Source of the DNA: Thermoproteota archaeon
GTDB taxonomy: Archaea > Thermoproteota > Korarchaeia > Korarchaeales > Korarchaeaceae
Direction: 5' to 3'
DNA length: 11,283 bases
NCBI GenBank assembly: GCA_011042755.1
Contig: DRBY01000036.1
Coordinates: forward strand, 1 to 11,283
Part shown: positions 770 to 6,491 of the stretch, piece by piece
Position numbering within the stretch: the first letter of the stretch is position 1
Layout of the letters: every line of letters begins with the position of its first letter
The notes under the pieces: model-generated
Databases searched by the model: none
What the model was told of the DNA's origin: nothing
What the model saw: the letters and a program-made list of their open reading frames with translations, nothing else
Made by a program: the position numbers and the translations under genes

Positions 770-1867
770 TTAAACTCTCTCCAACGCTGTGGTGGAGGAC
801 GGGCCTGCCTTCGGCGGGGATTTAGTTCGCTTCTCTCTCAAGTCGAACCTGTCAGATCTACGCCAACTCAGGTCCTTTCTCACTAAAATTAACTCGTTTA
901 CCATGGCATGCATCCAAAGGACGCTGTCAACCGGTCTCGAGAGGAGCATTAGCGGGACGGAAGCGAGGAGGTCCCACCTGCTCCTCCTGGCGATCCCGTA
1001 GAATGCTATGCCGGTCCATGAGATCAGGTCCGCGGATATGAAGGTCGCGATCGCGCGGCCCTGCAGCCCGACTGCCTTGGATATAAGGAGCGAGATCGCT
1101 AGGAAAAAGAACAGCACATTTTCCATCGTCAGGAAGGCTATCTGAACCTTGAGCCTGACCGGCAGTCTCCTGAAGTGCTTTCTCGCGCTCTGGAAGAATC
1201 CAGCGAACCACCTCCTCGTCTGTCGAATGTAAGATCCTAGGTTGGGTGGGTCGCTCGTCCAAGACACGGCGCCTGGCTCGTAGACGACCTTGTATCCCCG
1301 CTCGAGGACTGATAGTGTTAGATCCATGTCCTCGGTCACCGTGTCTGGACTGGGGTCGAATAGCTCCTTCCTCACTGCACCTACGCAGCCTGGGATAACC
1401 ATCACCGAGCTTGTGACGTCCATCCCCCTCTTGTAGACCTCTTGGCCCATGATGTACTGGAGCTCTCGCATGCCCGTGATGGCGTTGTGTCTCCTGGACC
1501 TCACGACGCCAGAGACGCCGCCGACCTCTGCATCAAAGAAGTGGGGAAGGATCTTCTCGATGGCCTCAGGGTCCAGCTCTGAGTCACCGTCCGTATAGAC
1601 GACGATGTCGCCTCGGACGATCGGCAGCGCCGCCCTGAGGGCTAGCGCCTTGTTACCGGTGTTCCTGCCGAGGTGAACGACCGTGATGCGCCTTGAGTAC
1701 CGCTTGAGTATCTCCGCGGTTCTATCCGTCGATCCATCGTTGATCACGACGACTTGGTCAGGACGTATCGACTGGCTTAGCACGCTCTCTATGCAGGCGG
1801 CCATGCCCTTCTCTTCGTTGTAAGCTGGAATCACTACAGAAAATGTGAGGGAGAGGCTGCGAGGCAT
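770..1867 (-). CDS. membrane-bound family 2 glycosyltransferase (processive type)
   Basis: Inverting GT-A fold glycosyltransferase of family GT2, expected at the cytoplasmic face of the membrane and using a nucleotide sugar. Counting from the ATG, the motifs in order are VVIPAYNEE near residue 11, NDGST near 43 (first Asp), TDGD near 92 (metal-binding DxD), TED near 178 (catalytic base region) and QTRRW near 216. D, DxD, ED and QxxRW together are the signature of processive enzymes such as hyaluronan, cellulose and poly-GlcNAc synthases. Three hydrophobic stretches follow at about 242-268, 275-294 and 299-318, then a basic tail. A TTG at 1873 would add two residues; I prefer ATG 1867 because GAGAG lies 6 bases before it, whereas it would abut the TTG. 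It follows the small membrane protein by 11 bases, so it is in the same operon. Polymer identity is unknown; a glycolipid or S-layer glycan role is also possible. Confidence 0.93.
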   Translation of the reverse strand: MPRSLSLTFSVVIPAYNEEKGMAACIESVLSQSIRPDQVVVINDGSTDRTAEILKRYSRRITVVHLGRNTGNKALALRAALPIVRGDIVVYTDGDSELDPEAIEKILPHFFDAEVGGVSGVVRSRRHNAITGMRELQYIMGQEVYKRGMDVTSSVMVIPGCVGAVRKELFDPSPDTVTEDMDLTLSVLERGYKVVYEPGAVSWTSDPPNLGSYIRQTRRWFAGFFQSARKHFRRLPVRLKVQIAFLTMENVLFFFLAISLLISKAVGLQGRAIATFISADLISWTGIAFYGIARRSRWDLLASVPLMLLSRPVDSVLWMHAMVNELILVRKDLSWRRSDRFDLREKRTKSPPKAGPSSTTALERV

Positions 1868-1878
1868 TCTCAACTCTC

Positions 1879-2175
1879 TCAGTATGTCCCCATCCGGTAG
1901 AATCCGTATCCGAACGACACAGAACCTAACGTGGTTAGGAGCAGGTAAGAGCCGTTTACGCCTAAGAAGAGTAGAGACAGCCGCTCCATGAGCAGCATCA
2001 GCGATATGGCCATGGAGAAGAATCCAAAGGCTATGAAACCTGCGGCTATGGCGTATCTCCTCATTCGAACCTTTCTAACTCTCTCAGCTGCCTTCCAGGC
2101 CTCTTCCAGTGTCTTACTAACTTTCGCGGCCGGCTCAACCAGCTCTCGAGCACCTATTACTTCACTCTCACTCAC
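1879..2175 (-). CDS. small two-helix membrane protein of unknown function
   Basis: 98 residues, not assigned to a family. An acidic, helical, cytosol-like N-terminus (1-38) ends in a basic stretch, RVRKVRMRR at 32-40, followed by two predicted membrane helices at about 41-62 and 67-92. The basic stretch before helix 1 suggests that the N-terminus stays inside. The GTG start at 2175 is well supported: GGAGGTGAT lies 5 bases upstream, the best Shine-Dalgarno sequence in the window. The start overlaps the end of the preceding gene by 4 bases (GTGA), so translation is probably coupled. Lying between the 179-residue protein and the GT2 glycosyltransferase, it may be an accessory or anchoring subunit of that enzyme; this is inference from position only. 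Confidence 0.82.
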   Translation of the reverse strand: MSESEVIGARELVEPAAKVSKTLEEAWKAAERVRKVRMRRYAIAAGFIAFGFFSMAISLMLLMERLSLLFLGVNGSYLLLTTLGSVSFGYGFYRMGTY

Positions 2176-2711
2176 TTCGTATCACCTCCCGTGAAATTGG
2201 GTTTTACAAGGTGTTCGACGAGCCGAGCAAGCTCCTGGAGCCTAATTACGCCCTTTCGGAAGGCGTCGACTACTATCTCGAGCGGCGAAGCCGTGCTGAG
2301 ACTGAGCATCTTAGCGACCTCGCGGGCTTCTCTCCTCAGGAGTAAGACCCTGTCGTGAGGCGTGCCAACCGCTGAAGCAATCGTAGATGACTCTCCAACA
2401 GTGAGGCCAAGCTCGAGCAGCTTGGCCGCCAGGTCCGCCATCTCCTCATTAGCTTCGAGGCAGGTGGCTATGTAGGCCTTAACGTAGAGGGACTCGGGTT
2501 CGCTGTCTAGAGAAGATGCACAGAAGTCCTTCTCCATGGCTATGTCGTCGTACGTGTACCCAATGAGCCAAGGCGCCCCCGCGGCCGTGAAGGCCCTGAG
2601 GATCTCAGGCTCGACGAAGACTCTAGACGATGCTGGACTAATGATAGATCCCACGACGGCTGCGCTGCCGAAAAAGACAGACGACATTGCTCCGCTAATT
2701 GTAAAACTCAA
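2172..2711 (-). CDS. hypothetical protein, first gene of the glycosyltransferase operon
   Basis: 179 residues from TTG 2711, or 171 from ATG 2687; not recognised. The N-terminal 30 residues are small and hydrophobic (SVFFGSAAVVGSIISPASS at 11-29), which could be a short membrane or signal segment or a buried strand. The rest is mostly helical and charged, with long amphipathic stretches at about 75-105 and 118-170. The upstream TATA-like TTTAAA at 2748-2753 predicts a transcript start near 2724, and AAGGGT sits about 9 bases before TTG 2711. The ATG has only a crowded GGAG two bases away, so I favour TTG without being certain. The gene ends inside the GTG start of the next. The coupled order (this protein, small membrane protein, GT2 enzyme, MFS permease) suggests a joint role in making or exporting a glycan. 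Confidence 0.75.
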   Translation of the reverse strand: MSFTISGAMSSVFFGSAAVVGSIISPASSRVFVEPEILRAFTAAGAPWLIGYTYDDIAMEKDFCASSLDSEPESLYVKAYIATCLEANEEMADLAAKLLELGLTVGESSTIASAVGTPHDRVLLLRREAREVAKMLSLSTASPLEIVVDAFRKGVIRLQELARLVEHLVKPNFTGGDTK

Positions 2712-2747
2712 TTTTCGTACCCTTAATCCTAATACGCTAGCATTGAA

Positions 2748-2753
2748 TTTAAA
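2748..2753 (-). promoter_or_regulatory. putative TATA box of the glycosyltransferase operon
   Basis: TTTAAA within an AT-rich stretch. On the minus strand it lies 36 bases upstream of TTG 2711, which puts the predicted transcript start about 12 bases before that codon. No other good TATA candidate is closer. Inferred from spacing only. Confidence 0.45.
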
Positions 2754-2760
2754 CTTACAA

Positions 2761-2796
2761 AAATTATTTGAAGTTAAAGCAAATTACTTGAGGTTA
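2761..2796. repeat. tandem 16-base direct repeat with 20-base period
   Basis: AAATTATTTGAAGTTA at 2761-2776 and AAATTACTTGAGGTTA at 2781-2796 match at 14 of 16 positions. The 20-base period is about two helical turns, so two protein subunits would bind on the same face. The pair sits just upstream of the minus-strand TATA element, a position typical of activator sites in archaea. AATTACTT recurs in the palindrome at 2968-3006, so one regulator could act on both promoters. Confidence 0.5.
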
Positions 2797-2958
2797 TTTT
2801 TGACATTCCCGTTTGCATCATTAGCACTCCCCGAAGTCGATTAGACCATTTATCCATTGATAAGAGGATCTCTTGCGTGTTTCCTCATCCAGATATTGAA
2901 TTAGACCTACTCCAGCTGACTTGCTCCTATGCTGGGTCAGAGAATGCTTGAGTGAATG

Positions 2959-2966
2959 TTTAAATT
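2959..2966 (+). promoter_or_regulatory. putative TATA box of the Yip1/Toastrack/regulator operon
   Basis: TTTAAATT. Adding about 25 bases predicts a transcript start near 2987, giving a leader of roughly 32 bases that contains the GGGGGG Shine-Dalgarno sequence before TTG 3020. The palindrome beginning at 2968 overlaps the predicted start, so a bound regulator could block polymerase. Confidence 0.5.
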
Positions 2967-2967
2967 C

Positions 2968-3006
2968 GAATTACTTCGATTTTATCATAAATAACCGAAG
3001 TAATTC
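2968..3006. promoter_or_regulatory. nested inverted repeat, candidate operator
   Basis: Perfect 11-base arms GAATTACTTCG (2968-2978) and CGAAGTAATTC (2996-3006) flank a 17-base AT-rich spacer. A second palindrome, TTTATCATAAA (2981-2991), lies inside the spacer, with its centre one base from that of the outer arms. The element falls between the TATA box and the Shine-Dalgarno sequence, over the predicted transcript start. The natural candidate binder is the winged-helix protein encoded third in this operon (4382-5029), making an autoregulatory loop. A hairpin in the mRNA leader is possible, but the long loop makes a DNA operator likelier. Confidence 0.6.
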
Positions 3007-3019
3007 AGGGGGGAGCGGT

Positions 3020-3724
3020 TTGGCGAGTCAGTTCAGGAGCAGCCTCTATCGGGTTGGCAGCGTCCTCTTGCACCCCAGACAGGCCTTTGAGGTTATGGTG
3101 CATGAGGATGTCTCTATAGGACTCCCGCTGCTGCTAGCCGCAGCCATATTCTTTGCAGAGGGCGCCCTAATAGTGTCCGCCATACTCAGAGCGATACCCC
3201 TGCCCCTCGGCTTTCTCATAGCCCTCGCCGGTCCACTTGCGGGACTTGGCTGCGCGGTGGCGGGAGTGCTCTGGCTCGGAATCGAGGCGCTCCTATTTCA
3301 CGTAAATACCGTCCTGCTGGGTGGAGAAGGCGACATCACGAGGATGTTTAGCGTGGTCGCATACTCGGTACTGCCGGTGTCCATTCCGCTGGGAGCATTC
3401 GCGCTGGCGGTGCTCACCGGAGGGCTCGGAGCGCTCGGGTGGCTGGCGCTGGGAGGAATGCTCTGGATAGCCGCGTTGCTGTGGGGAATTGTCCTCCGGG
3501 TCATAGGAACCTCAGTGAACTACAACGTCGACGCTGGCAGGGCCTTCTTGGCCGCGGTGCTAATACCGCTTGCAGACCTGCTCTTCGTCGTCTTCTTGGG
3601 GAAATACGGTCTGGTTCTGATACTGGCGGCGTACGGCCTGGCGTACTACTTCACCAGAGTGCAGAGATCCAGGCAGCGTGAGACGAGCCTAGTGGTTGAG
3701 GAGGGTGGTGAGCATGAGGGCTGA
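3020..3724 (+). CDS. Yip1-like polytopic membrane protein
   Basis: 234 residues from TTG 3020. The N-terminal line LLHPRQAFEVMVHEDVSIG, about 16-34, matches the conserved opening of prokaryotic Yip1-domain proteins (PF04893: a short cytosolic stretch with P..AF.....E before the first helix). Five or six hydrophobic segments follow at about 35-58, 62-89, 107-134, 136-160, 175-195 and 193-210, then a charged C-terminal tail. Yip1 relatives act in membrane trafficking in eukaryotes; the prokaryotic members have no settled function. The start is chosen because a G-run (3008-3013) lies 6 bases upstream and because the longer frame would cover the promoter. Its last 11 bases overlap the next gene, so the two are coupled. 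Pairing with a membrane-anchored Toastrack-like protein and a regulator suggests an envelope-sensing unit. Confidence 0.82.
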   Translation: MASQFRSSLYRVGSVLLHPRQAFEVMVHEDVSIGLPLLLAAAIFFAEGALIVSAILRAIPLPLGFLIALAGPLAGLGCAVAGVLWLGIEALLFHVNTVLLGGEGDITRMFSVVAYSVLPVSIPLGAFALAVLTGGLGALGWLALGGMLWIAALLWGIVLRVIGTSVNYNVDAGRAFLAAVLIPLADLLFVVFLGKYGLVLILAAYGLAYYFTRVQRSRQRETSLVVEEGGEHEG

Positions 3725-4385
3725 AGAGGTTGTGGGCCTGGTGATCGTGGGCCTGGTGGTCTTCAGCATTGCGGCCAGCTTTGTGGCGCCGAAGCTCGCG
3801 CCAGCCGAACTTCCAGAAGGTCTCCGGGAGATTGCGGAGAGTCTGGGCTGGGCCATGGAGAACTTCACGTTCACGGGAGCAGCCGGGTCTCGGACGGTAG
3901 AGATACCGGTTGACCAGGCCGCCAACTTGATCCTCAAGGTCGGGGCTGGAGAAGTCAGCATAGAGAGCTCCGGGCAGGGAGAGAGCGTCGTCGTAAACGT
4001 AGAGGGCACGGGGATCAACATCCAGGGTGCCGTCGTAAACGTAGGCGCCGGAGAGGTCAGAGTCCTCTTGCCCGAGGGCTTCAGCTTCGACAGCCTGACG
4101 ATCGACCTGGGCATGGGCAACCTCGAGGGTGTTATTCCGCTCTCAGGGGCAGGCGTGGCCACAGTCGATCTCGGGATGGGAAACGCCGACCTGGCGCTGA
4201 TCCCGCAGGGTGAAGACGGAACCGTCTCAGTCAGCGTTCAGATGGGCGGAATTGATGTCCATGGCGTCCAGCCCGTAATGCAGACTGAAAACGAATTCAC
4301 AGGCGTGCTGGGCTCCGGCGAGGGATTTAGACTCACTATCAACGTTGGCATGGGGGATGTCCTAGTCAGGGTGGCCAAGCCTTGA
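3714..4385 (+). CDS. membrane-anchored beta-repeat protein, DUF4097/Toastrack-like
   Basis: 223 residues from ATG 3714, with a GGTGAG Shine-Dalgarno sequence just upstream. One N-terminal helix at about 6-26 is a signal anchor; a short linker with two amphipathic turns (31-50) follows, then a nearly pure beta region to the end. Six short repeats of the form [VL]xxG[ENGD]hxh occur at 76-83 (VGAGEVSI), 110-117 (VGAGEVRV), 132-139 (LGMGNLEG), 153-160 (LGMGNADL), 175-182 (VQMGGIDV) and 211-218 (VGMGDVLV). This is the pattern of the stacked-strand Toastrack fold (DUF4097, DUF2807 and LiaF/LiaG C-terminal domains), linked in bacteria to cell-envelope stress responses and Psp-related loci. The domain probably faces outside the membrane. 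It overlaps its neighbours by 11 and 4 bases. Family membership comes from the repeat pattern, not from a profile search. Confidence 0.8.
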   Translation: MRAEEVVGLVIVGLVVFSIAASFVAPKLAPAELPEGLREIAESLGWAMENFTFTGAAGSRTVEIPVDQAANLILKVGAGEVSIESSGQGESVVVNVEGTGINIQGAVVNVGAGEVRVLLPEGFSFDSLTIDLGMGNLEGVIPLSGAGVATVDLGMGNADLALIPQGEDGTVSVSVQMGGIDVHGVQPVMQTENEFTGVLGSGEGFRLTINVGMGDVLVRVAKP

Positions 4386-5029
4386 GGATTCCAGCGACTA
4401 GGCCGCTCGCAGCGAGGAGAGTGATTCAGGCGCTGGCCAGCGACGCGAAGCTGAGGCTGCTCCGCCTCCTGTCCAGGGGGCCATCCTCCCCCTCAGCGAT
4501 GGCCAAGGAGCTTAACATGGCTCTCAGCGTGGTGACAGAGCACCTCAGAGATCTGGAGCGAGCTGGCATCGTTAGGACGGCGGGCTACTCTAAGGAGGGA
4601 AGAGGGAGGCCGGCAAAGCTCTACTCTCTATCCAGCAGGAGGATAACCCTAGAGATCGACTTGCCCCTTTACGCGTCGGTAGGGTCTGAAGACGATGTGT
4701 TGAGCTTGGCAATAGAGTACATAAGGAAGAAAATCTCTGGAGCAGGGTTGCCGGCCTCTCCGGCGGCACTGGACATCGCGGAGACTCTGGGCGTGGACGT
4801 GAAAGTTGGGGCCGTGGTGCTAGACGCGCTCAGAGAGCCGAAGAGAGAGGTCCTCGACTTCCTAGGAGACGCCATTCTCAGGGAGCTCAAGCCTGACGAA
4901 TGGCTGAGCGCGGAGGATCTGGCGGAGAAGCTGAACATGGACAAGTACTGGGTTCTCGTGGCCTTGCGCGACATGGCTCGTAGAGGACTTGTGGAGGTCA
5001 AGGGAGGGAGAGCCAAGGCTCTCCCCTAA
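4382..5029 (+). CDS. transcriptional regulator with two winged-helix regions (ArsR-like N-terminus)
   Basis: 215 residues. The N-terminal winged helix at about 12-85 is ArsR-like: ALASDAKLRLLRLL, a recognition-helix region MALSVVTEHLRDLERAGIV at 46-64, and a wing with GRGRPAKLYSLS at 73-84. A middle region, 95-165, is helical and may dimerise or sense. A second apparent winged helix occupies about 165-212 (WLSAEDLAEKLNM, then LRDMARRGLVEVKGGRA). I see no CxC or similar metal site, so a metal sensor is unlikely. The TTG start overlaps the preceding stop by 4 bases (TTGA), with AGGGTGG about 8 bases upstream, so it is made together with the two membrane proteins. It most likely regulates its own operon, and perhaps the divergent one, through the repeats at 2761-3006. 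Confidence 0.87.
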   Translation: MRIPATRPLAARRVIQALASDAKLRLLRLLSRGPSSPSAMAKELNMALSVVTEHLRDLERAGIVRTAGYSKEGRGRPAKLYSLSSRRITLEIDLPLYASVGSEDDVLSLAIEYIRKKISGAGLPASPAALDIAETLGVDVKVGAVVLDALREPKREVLDFLGDAILRELKPDEWLSAEDLAEKLNMDKYWVLVALRDMARRGLVEVKGGRAKALP

Positions 5030-5035
5030 CCCAAC

Positions 5036-5041
5036 TTTTTT
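5036..5041 (+). terminator. T-tract, possible archaeal terminator
   Basis: Six T's occur 7 bases after the stop codon of the regulator gene. Archaeal polymerase often stops at oligo-T without a hairpin. Weak flanking complementarity (CCCA at 5030-5033 with TGGG at 5046-5049) could add little. If it functions, the 110-residue gene downstream needs its own promoter or depends on read-through. Confidence 0.35.
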
Positions 5042-5067
5042 CAGCTGGGCCCACTCAACCTCACTGC

Positions 5068-5400
5068 TTGCCCCCAAGGGTTACTCTGAGAAGGCCGCTG
5101 AAGCCTGAAGGCGGTAAGGCTCTGCTGGCGGCAGCTCTCATAGACCTCTTAGGCTTCGTCTCAACGATCCTCGGCATTTTAGACATCCCTCTCGACGTTC
5201 CTATTGGGATCTTGCAGGCGATCTTCGTCTGGTATGTGGAGAACAAGTTTGGGGAGGGGATCAGCTGGGCCAGCGTTCCAGCCATGCTAGAAGAGTTCCT
5301 CCCACCACCACTCGATATCCTCCCGATTTGCACGCTGGTGGCGGTCAGGAGGGCGTTCCAGTCTCCGGTGACACGAGGAGGCGGCTCGGAGTCGGCCTGA
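5068..5400 (+). CDS. small membrane protein of unknown function
   Basis: 110 residues from TTG 5068, the only in-frame start; no Shine-Dalgarno sequence is visible. After a basic N-terminus (RVTLRRPLKPEGGK), hydrophobic stretches lie at about 18-39, 43-58 and 82-96. Recurrent features are GFVSTILGILDIPLD at 29-43, FVWYVENKFG at 53-62 and EEFLPPPLDILPICT at 75-89. The arrangement of a G..D..D..P turn and an EE.LP..DI.P..T end resembles small membrane proteins I recall from bacteria and plastids, but I cannot name the family. The opposite strand is also open here, but its protein is Ser/Pro/Arg-rich, like a shadow. It lies 38 bases after the regulator and ends 14 bases before the convergent ModE-like gene. 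It may be a fourth member of the Yip1/Toastrack operon. Confidence 0.66.
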   Translation: MPPRVTLRRPLKPEGGKALLAAALIDLLGFVSTILGILDIPLDVPIGILQAIFVWYVENKFGEGISWASVPAMLEEFLPPPLDILPICTLVAVRRAFQSPVTRGGGSESA

Positions 5401-5414
5401 GTAACTCGCTCTAG

Positions 5415-6491
5415 CTATGAGTACATCACATAGCCAGTCTCCTCAGTAATCCTGTATCCAGGCATATTGGCGAGGATCTCGGCCAACTCTCCCGATGTCA
5501 TGATTCTGATCAGCTCCTGCGCAGCCTGCTTCTTGAGAGACTGCTTCCTGACTATTAGGTCGTACCACTCCCAAGCCAGCCTCTTAAAGCCCAGGCCGAA
5601 CTTCTCTGCCACGAATCGCACCGCGACGCCCACATCGGCCTCGCCAGACGCCACCTTCTTGGCGATGCCCACGTGCGTTCTCACCTCAGTCTGGTATCCC
5701 TTCACCCTCTTCGGCGCCTCGTGCGGGTCTATCCCTAGATCTAAGGCCTGCTGACGGAGGAGGTAGTCAAGGAGAATTCTCGTGCCCGAGCCGGGATTTC
5801 TGTTGATGAGCCTGAACTTGCCAGCGAGCAGATCCTTGAGGCTCTCAATCTTTGTATCGGGCCTGTAGACTAGGCCGATCTCTCGCTGGTAACCGCGTAT
5901 CACCACGACCTTACCGTCCAGCCAGTATCTCGAGAGGTAGGAGACGTTGTACATCCCGGTCTCCGGGTCGAGTAAGTGAGAGCCCGCCGCATCCGCCTGC
6001 TCCAGCATTAAGGCCGCGAGACCCCCAGCGGAGCCTAGCCACACCCTCTCTATGTCGAGCTCTGGTTTAGAAGATTTCACTCGCTCTAGGATTGCTTCAA
6101 GCGCGGGATCGTGGCTGCCAGCCACTAGGAAGTCGGGAGGGACCTCCCTCATCCTCCCGACGAGTTCCAACCTCCTGCGCTCCAGCTTAGACTTCTCCTC
6201 CATGTACCGCTTGAGGAGGGCCTTCCCCAACGGCTTGAGCCTGGCCCCACCGCCTCCACGTCCACCCCTTCTGACCTCTAGGACGCGCTCGCCCAAGATC
6301 TTCTCCAGGTCAGAGAGCTTCTCCCAGACTCTGGAGTAGGAGGCCCCCACGGCCTTGCAAGCCGCCAGTAGGGAGCCTCTTCTCTCTACCTCCTCCAGAA
6401 TCTTGGCCAACTTTGGATCTAGTATGACCTCCCCCCTGTACTCGAGTACTAGCGCAACTTTCGGCCTGACTTCCTCCAGCGGATTTCTCAC
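5415..6491 (-). CDS. ModE-type HTH fused to a PBP-like sensor domain, probable molybdate/tungstate regulator
   Basis: 358 residues. Residues 25-95 form a LysR/ModE-type winged helix: GSLLAACKAVGASYSRVW at 39-56 and the wing RRGGRGGGGARLKPLGKALL at 74-93, whose Gly-rich segment is a hallmark of ModE. A helical linker (95-117) leads to a periplasmic-binding-protein-like domain at about 121-345 of the PF12727 type, with NRNPGSGTR at 230-238, THVGIAKKVASGEADVGVAV at 272-291 and AGSHDPALE at 124-132. In related proteins this domain replaces the MOP domain and is thought to bind oxyanions. There is no signal peptide, so it acts in the cytosol. The GTG start at 6491 lies 27 bases from the centre of a TATA element, suggesting a leaderless mRNA. 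No molybdate transporter or cofactor gene is visible nearby, so the targets are outside the window. Confidence is high for the architecture, lower for the ligand. Confidence 0.88.
   Translation of the reverse strand: MRNPLEEVRPKVALVLEYRGEVILDPKLAKILEEVERRGSLLAACKAVGASYSRVWEKLSDLEKILGERVLEVRRGGRGGGGARLKPLGKALLKRYMEEKSKLERRRLELVGRMREVPPDFLVAGSHDPALEAILERVKSSKPELDIERVWLGSAGGLAALMLEQADAAGSHLLDPETGMYNVSYLSRYWLDGKVVVIRGYQREIGLVYRPDTKIESLKDLLAGKFRLINRNPGSGTRILLDYLLRQQALDLGIDPHEAPKRVKGYQTEVRTHVGIAKKVASGEADVGVAVRFVAEKFGLGFKRLAWEWYDLIVRKQSLKKQAAQELIRIMTSGELAEILANMPGYRITEETGYVMYS

Follow-up and report, generated by a model that had tools for sequence, protein, structure and literature searches.

The window analysed here, a stretch of 11,283 nucleotides from a Thermoproteota archaeon, carries three overlapping genes on the plus strand at 3020-5029, which encode a Yip1 membrane protein, an anchored Toastrack protein and a winged-helix regulator (the triad). 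The original prediction had described them as genes for a polytopic membrane protein, an anchored beta protein and a DNA-binding protein that overlap by 11 and 4 bases, and had suggested a Yip1 and a Toastrack identity for the first two; the gene arrangement is confirmed and both identities are supported. The first gene (3020-3724, plus strand) encodes a Yip1-domain polytopic membrane protein of 234 aa that matches PF04893 with an E-value of 3.1e-13 and 50.4 bits against a curated cut-off of 28.6. Its TTG start codon at 3020 is backed by family alignment A5. The family alignments A3, A4 and A5 comprise 17, 19 and 15 selected members, with near-duplicates and same-genome repeats left out. All 15 selected Yip1 members match PF04893 at E<=0.1, and at this threshold their Pfam scan returned, besides PF04893, one weak DUF5803 match and no HAAS profile (DUF1700/DUF1129/DUF1048). 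Nowhere in the triad was a HAAS or PspC profile matched.

The second gene (3714-4385, plus strand) encodes a 223-aa protein with a single N-terminal TM segment and a Toastrack (LiaF-C/DUF4097-type) beta-solenoid. No Pfam family of the Toastrack clan (DUF4097/DUF2154/DUF2807) matches the protein of the window, its LiaG profile match (2.7e-4) lies far below the LiaG cut-off, and a sequence search of solved structures returned none at E<=1. Its beta-helix fold is that of PDB 4QRK/4OPW, and among the 17 family members six match LiaF-like_C and six match DUF4097 (E<=0.1). The charges flanking the TM segment are ambiguous as to the membrane side of the Toastrack domain; the domain is K/R-poor in the window protein (3.4%) and could lie outside the cell.

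The third gene (4382-5029, plus strand) encodes a 215-aa ArsR/Phr-like regulator whose first winged helix is followed by another at the C-terminus and which has no TM segment. Its ArsR-type winged helix has a Phr-like fold, closest to the Pyrococcus ArsR homologue/Phr, and the archaeal heat-shock regulator Phr (PDB 2p4w; 1uly of P. horikoshii) provides the best structural and sequence matches for the first winged helix. Alignment with Phr is good only over the first 90-odd residues of the regulator, and in contrast to Phr the triad protein has a second winged helix and is linked to membrane genes. Nineteen Pfam families match the window regulator at E<=0.001, all of them DNA-binding (helix-turn-helix) and none a ligand domain; PadR (PF03551) is neither among these 19 nor among the best 25 of 50 families for the 19 selected members. 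Between the relatives at loci L001 and L002 the dN/dS values are 0.032/0.087 for the Toastrack gene and 0.013/0.079 for the regulator gene. Rfam and tRNA searches found nothing. An anti-phage defence role was considered and rejected. Neither the Yip1 nor the Toastrack protein has a PADLOC match; the best PADLOC matches of the regulator are Csa3/CasR/CARF proteins, over the first winged helix, followed by three weak ones (PDC-M05B once, MkoB twice).

The regulator alignment was used to scan genome contigs and yielded 14 loci. Ten of these (L001-L010) are archaeal and carry the triad, the middle gene surfacing only by iterated profile in three of them, and the remaining four, winged-helix genes of bacteria, lack the triad. 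The phylum of G001, the genome of L001, was sampled with 29 genomes, many of them the same as the genomes of L001-L010. A regulator match at E<=1e-15 was found in 19 of the 29, and in 18 of these 19 (18/29 of the phylum sample) the Yip1, Toastrack and regulator genes lie side by side on one strand, where the Toastrack gene of L035 was identified from open reading frames and the Yip1 frame of L034 is truncated by the locus end; the 19th match (L036) is a different, solitary winged-helix gene. The conserved neighbourhood expected from the original prediction is thus found. At E<=1e-18 a survey of 394 relatives, the 29 phylum genomes included, returned the same 18 genomes and none of the other 365 relatives, with at most seven candidates scored per genome, by which distant copies could be missed. 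As far as tested, the triad is archaeal and confined to one phylum. We infer that this phylum is Korarchaeota, in NCBI a class of Thermoproteota, because the L024 regulator is identical to P0016, a protein of Candidatus Korarchaeum sp. Our search of the open-licence PMC literature found neither a Yip1-Toastrack-winged-helix triad nor a Toastrack in Korarchaeota.

Genome loci extend only about 1.5 kb past the triad, and within this distance a gene similar to the VTT/DedA-type membrane protein of L004 follows the regulator in 9/18 triad genomes. It stands directly after the regulator at L004 10668-11330 (the one copy that was Pfam-tested), L005 3710-4387, L007 10682-11410 and L010 3326-3916, and was not found in the window; its product is a candidate output. 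A 300-aa protein (L004 11335-12237 and orthologues), for which three scanned copies gave no Pfam match, is encoded downstream of the triad in 12 of the 18 genomes within the same reach. The small membrane protein of 110 aa that follows the three genes in the original prediction is not conserved; it was not found in 29 other loci surveyed and was dropped as a fourth member. Two more genes of the window lie on the minus strand: 2172-2711 encodes a 179-aa protein that matches the PADLOC candidate defence family PDC-S70 (E 9e-8), and 5415-6491 a fusion of a ModE-type DNA-binding domain with a PBP-like one, apparently a one-component regulator, which is found near the triad in L001 and L002 as well.

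Upstream of the triad a predicted TATA-box-like element (TTTAAAT, 2959-2965, plus strand) marks the promoter, and TATA-like elements occupy the equivalent place upstream of the Yip1 gene in relatives, e.g. TTTATAAT in L001 and L004. Between this element and the start codon sits a perfect 11-bp inverted repeat, GAATTACTTCG-N17-CGAAGTAATTC, at 2968-3006 (arms 2968-2978 and 2996-3006, no strand assigned), which is a candidate operator and which the original prediction had not mentioned. A possible ribosome-binding site, GGGGGGAG, read from the sequence only, lies ahead of the TTG start at 3008-3015 (plus strand). Archaeal transcription starts about 26 bases past the TATA box, and judged from this usual distance the repeat arms flank the expected start. 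In 500 base shuffles of the 44-base region the repeat has p=0.004. L001 and L002 have the same repeat at the same position and with the same spacing, with a compensating T/A swap on both arms. Each of their two whole genomes contains the strict operator pattern a single time, at the triad, and the window too has one occurrence, even at up to 3 mismatches. With 3 mismatches allowed, one extra operator-like site appears in G001 and none in G002. The extra site (C17:63319-63355; about 1501-1537 of L017) is an imperfect copy with 3 mismatches between two frames, shortly 5' of a 509-aa frame with a secreted-looking start, and is possibly either a second target or a chance match. A regulon beyond the operon was rejected, as there is no second strict site in the two genomes.

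Further away, the distant locus L035 (regulator identity 27%) has ACTTCG/CGAAGT half-sites at the same place with a shorter spacer (p 0.11 on its own). Another branch carries a different element at the same place, TTACTTAAGTAAGTAAGTTT, which was derived from that branch's own promoters, occurs once each in 4/4 close genomes and has no second site in these four. When 12 upstream regions, near-duplicate promoters left out, were tested for palindromes, four (window, L001, L004 and L033) gave p<0.01 and eight, L035 included, were not significant; the combined p over the 12 promoters is 1e-5, a figure set aside because the rows are related. The inverted repeat is probably the operator of the operon's own winged-helix regulator, which would make the operon autorepressed. 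The two divergent promoter regions of the window (2745-2759 and 2953-2967) have almost the same TATA region (13/15 bases), oppositely oriented.

The original prediction had seen neither a histidine kinase nor PspA at the locus, and for the operon both parts hold: its proteins include no PspA/LiaH and no two-component kinase. HisKA (PF00512) is present in 1/29 phylum genomes, namely G004, which carries the triad, against 12/14 control genomes; this survey covered PF00512 alone in assemblies of unknown completeness, and on this footing it is plausible that the kinase-free reading holds genome-wide. The absence of PspA is true of the operon only, since PspA (PF04012) occurs away from the triad in 23/29 phylum genomes, among them 18/18 triad genomes. 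Triad and PspA are associated (18/18 vs 5/11, Fisher p 0.001; 16/16 vs 5/8, p 0.028, without genomes under 1.2 Mb), an association that is genome co-occurrence only, confounded by relatedness and completeness, and that gives a hint at most.

Away from the triad, DUF4097 proteins score above cut-off in 11 of the 29 phylum genomes and lead to a second korarchaeal Toastrack locus (L057 6310-8715; L058 6439-8846; L059 29-2431; L060 2888-5290; L037/L071; L072; L063). In eight of the 29 genomes, four of them triad carriers, an ArsR-like winged helix at the N-terminus is joined to a multi-TM domain at the C-terminus in a fusion protein of about 255-283 aa. In five of these eight genomes (G014, G015, G016, G018 and G022) the fusion gene adjoins that of the Toastrack protein, and in most of the five a small LiaI/LiaF-like membrane protein is encoded between the two (not called in G016), its LiaI/LiaF-like matches being weak and below cut-off. 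Other genes intervene in G029, the fusion is on another contig in G028, and in G006 the contig edge leaves just the end of a gene of this kind, beside a Toastrack gene. One copy of the locus has a winged-helix protein (TrmB-like, weak) with 4Fe-4S motifs beside it (L063 5532-6500, minus strand). A first profile comparison of Yip1 with the fusion protein was weak (probability 4%), and among the members scanned a single one matched Pfam Yip1, at E 0.04-0.09. Restricted to the TM region, hhalign scored the fusion's multi-TM domain against Yip1 with 26.2 over 50 columns (probability 8.6%), and 40 column shuffles of this comparison reached at most 16.8. No more than a weak Yip1 likeness of the multi-TM domain is suggested by these values.

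The closest counterpart of the triad is the bacterial PadR-HAAS-Toastrack group with the Listeria lltR operon; the archaeal variant is new. That operon encodes LltR (a PadR repressor), Lmo0600 (DUF1700) and Lmo0601 (DUF4097) (PMC6624303), and in a repressor mutant the repressor, DUF1700 and DUF4097 genes are up 107- to 151-fold, with liaI and liaH up 3.8- and 2.6-fold (PMC6624303). Like the triad it places a Toastrack-type protein and a multi-spanning membrane protein under a winged-helix repressor encoded in the same operon (in the triad a probable one), and each repressor controls just one or two units (PMC6624303), as would the triad regulator. In contrast to the Listeria case, the triad regulator is of ArsR/Phr-like type and carries a second winged helix, its gene stands last, the host is an archaeon, and the membrane protein matches Yip1 (PF04893) itself and not DUF1700/HAAS. 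Ravi et al. 2024 describe a kinase-free and PspA-free HAAS-PadR dyad with Toastrack, assign DUF1700 to the Yip1 clan, liken HAAS to the Yip1 family and propose Toastrack as a sub-membrane assembly surface (PMC11237479). The kinase-free membrane module, the Toastrack and the stand-alone winged helix (PMC11237479) are shared with the triad, which differs in having no HAAS or PspC match and in its archaeal occurrence, limited to one phylum as far as tested; because no HAAS profile matches, we do not class it as a HAAS-PadR member. The same article terms Toastrack in archaea sporadic, and its main text does not contain 'Korarchae' (PMC11237479). A membrane-anchored Toastrack domain is also found in Bacillus LiaFSR/LiaG (the LiaF C-terminus and LiaG; PMC11237479, PMC9239133), but the triad operon has no histidine kinase, response regulator or LiaH/PspA. 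Transmembrane transcription regulators act on DNA from the membrane (PMC10269533), an idea that fits the fusion at the second korarchaeal Toastrack locus, whereas the DNA-binding protein of the triad is separate and has no TM segment. By analogy, the triad probably works like the Listeria lltR and HAAS-PadR systems.

The operon, its domain identities, its phylum-wide co-travel and the conserved repeat are observed, and on balance they lead us to favour, with moderate confidence, a reading of the three genes as one autoregulated, kinase-free membrane-to-DNA signalling unit, probably a membrane-linked switch. The winged-helix protein would bind the inverted repeat as a dimer and repress its own operon, while the Yip1 and Toastrack proteins would keep the regulator at the membrane or let it go upon bilayer or envelope disturbance; once repression is lifted, more of the membrane proteins would be made until the regulator closes the promoter again. 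The direct output would be the operon itself, apparently together with the VTT/DedA-type fourth gene in half of the triad genomes. Membrane stress as the signal is our hypothesis. The direct route from membrane to winged helix put forward in the original prediction is the likeliest design, and the fused protein of the second Toastrack locus points the same way: direct coupling in the triad is favoured because winged helix and membrane domain can be fused in Toastrack loci of this phylum.

The strongest competitor, which we regard as rather unlikely although it has real points in its favour, assumes that, like Phr or other ArsR proteins, the regulator itself responds to a signal in the cytoplasm (heat, redox or a ligand) and that Yip1 and Toastrack act purely as effectors which remodel or brace the membrane and send no signal to the regulator. 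It would agree with the nature of the closest solved relatives of the regulator, which are cytoplasmic one-component regulators of Pyrococcus, with the strict operator pattern, which puts only the operon itself under control, and with the Listeria lltR operon, where a cold-growth defect came from the derepressed DUF1700 gene (PMC6624303). Direct coupling nevertheless agrees better with the phylum-wide bond between this regulator and a pair of membrane proteins and with the winged-helix/multi-TM fusion of the second Toastrack locus, and the 19 Pfam families matching the regulator at E<=0.001 include no ligand domain. It is a good deal less probable that the repeat is a 5'-UTR hairpin for translational or attenuation control, unrelated to the regulator. 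An 11-bp stem can form in RNA with a minimum free energy of -15.5 kcal/mol, but this folding is unexceptional (z -1.57; 16/200 shuffles fold equally well or better), and with two bases from the TATA box to the left arm, that arm should precede the transcription start and lie outside the RNA; a repressor site is favoured over a hairpin because the arms span the expected start. Finally, the divergent glycosyltransferase (GT2) operon, which the original prediction had called a plausible output, is very improbable in that role, in which the regulator would govern its promoter and that of the triad from the shared intergenic region and change the surface glycan under stress: the divergent genes of the window do have a region of 308 bp (2712-3019) in common, and the GT2, 98-aa and 179-aa genes stay close to the triad in L001 and L002, but the cluster (770-2711, minus strand), divergent in the window, is convergent and downstream of the triad in those two loci and has its promoter elsewhere, GT2 was not found in 25 other loci surveyed (some of them short), about 257 bases separate the repeat in the window from the beginning of the first gene of the cluster (2711), and no operator copy accompanies the cluster by the strict pattern in two genomes or, at up to 3 mismatches, in the window, so that with its neighbourhood not conserved and the operator pattern only at the triad the cluster was rejected as output.

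Beyond the membrane-to-DNA unit favoured for the triad, a wider scenario can be drawn, which we offer tentatively and hold to be unlikely as it stands: Korarchaeota may have replaced two-component envelope sensing by a transmembrane-to-DNA route with Yip1-family proteins as transducer, in a three-protein form (Yip1, Toastrack and a free double winged helix) and a fused form (winged helix-Yip1-like multi-TM beside LiaI/LiaF-like and Toastrack proteins). Yip1-family proteins are known from eukaryotic Golgi trafficking, and if the scenario is true, it would point to a signalling role of the Yip1 clan that predates vesicle traffic. With three small proteins and a promoter that carries a probable operator of 39 bp, the triad offers a compact, phylum-wide candidate unit testable in vitro and in a surrogate host. 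If our reading is true, the kinase-free Toastrack/winged-helix principle would reach beyond bacteria into a deep archaeal phylum, and the Yip1 family would be tied to gene regulation.
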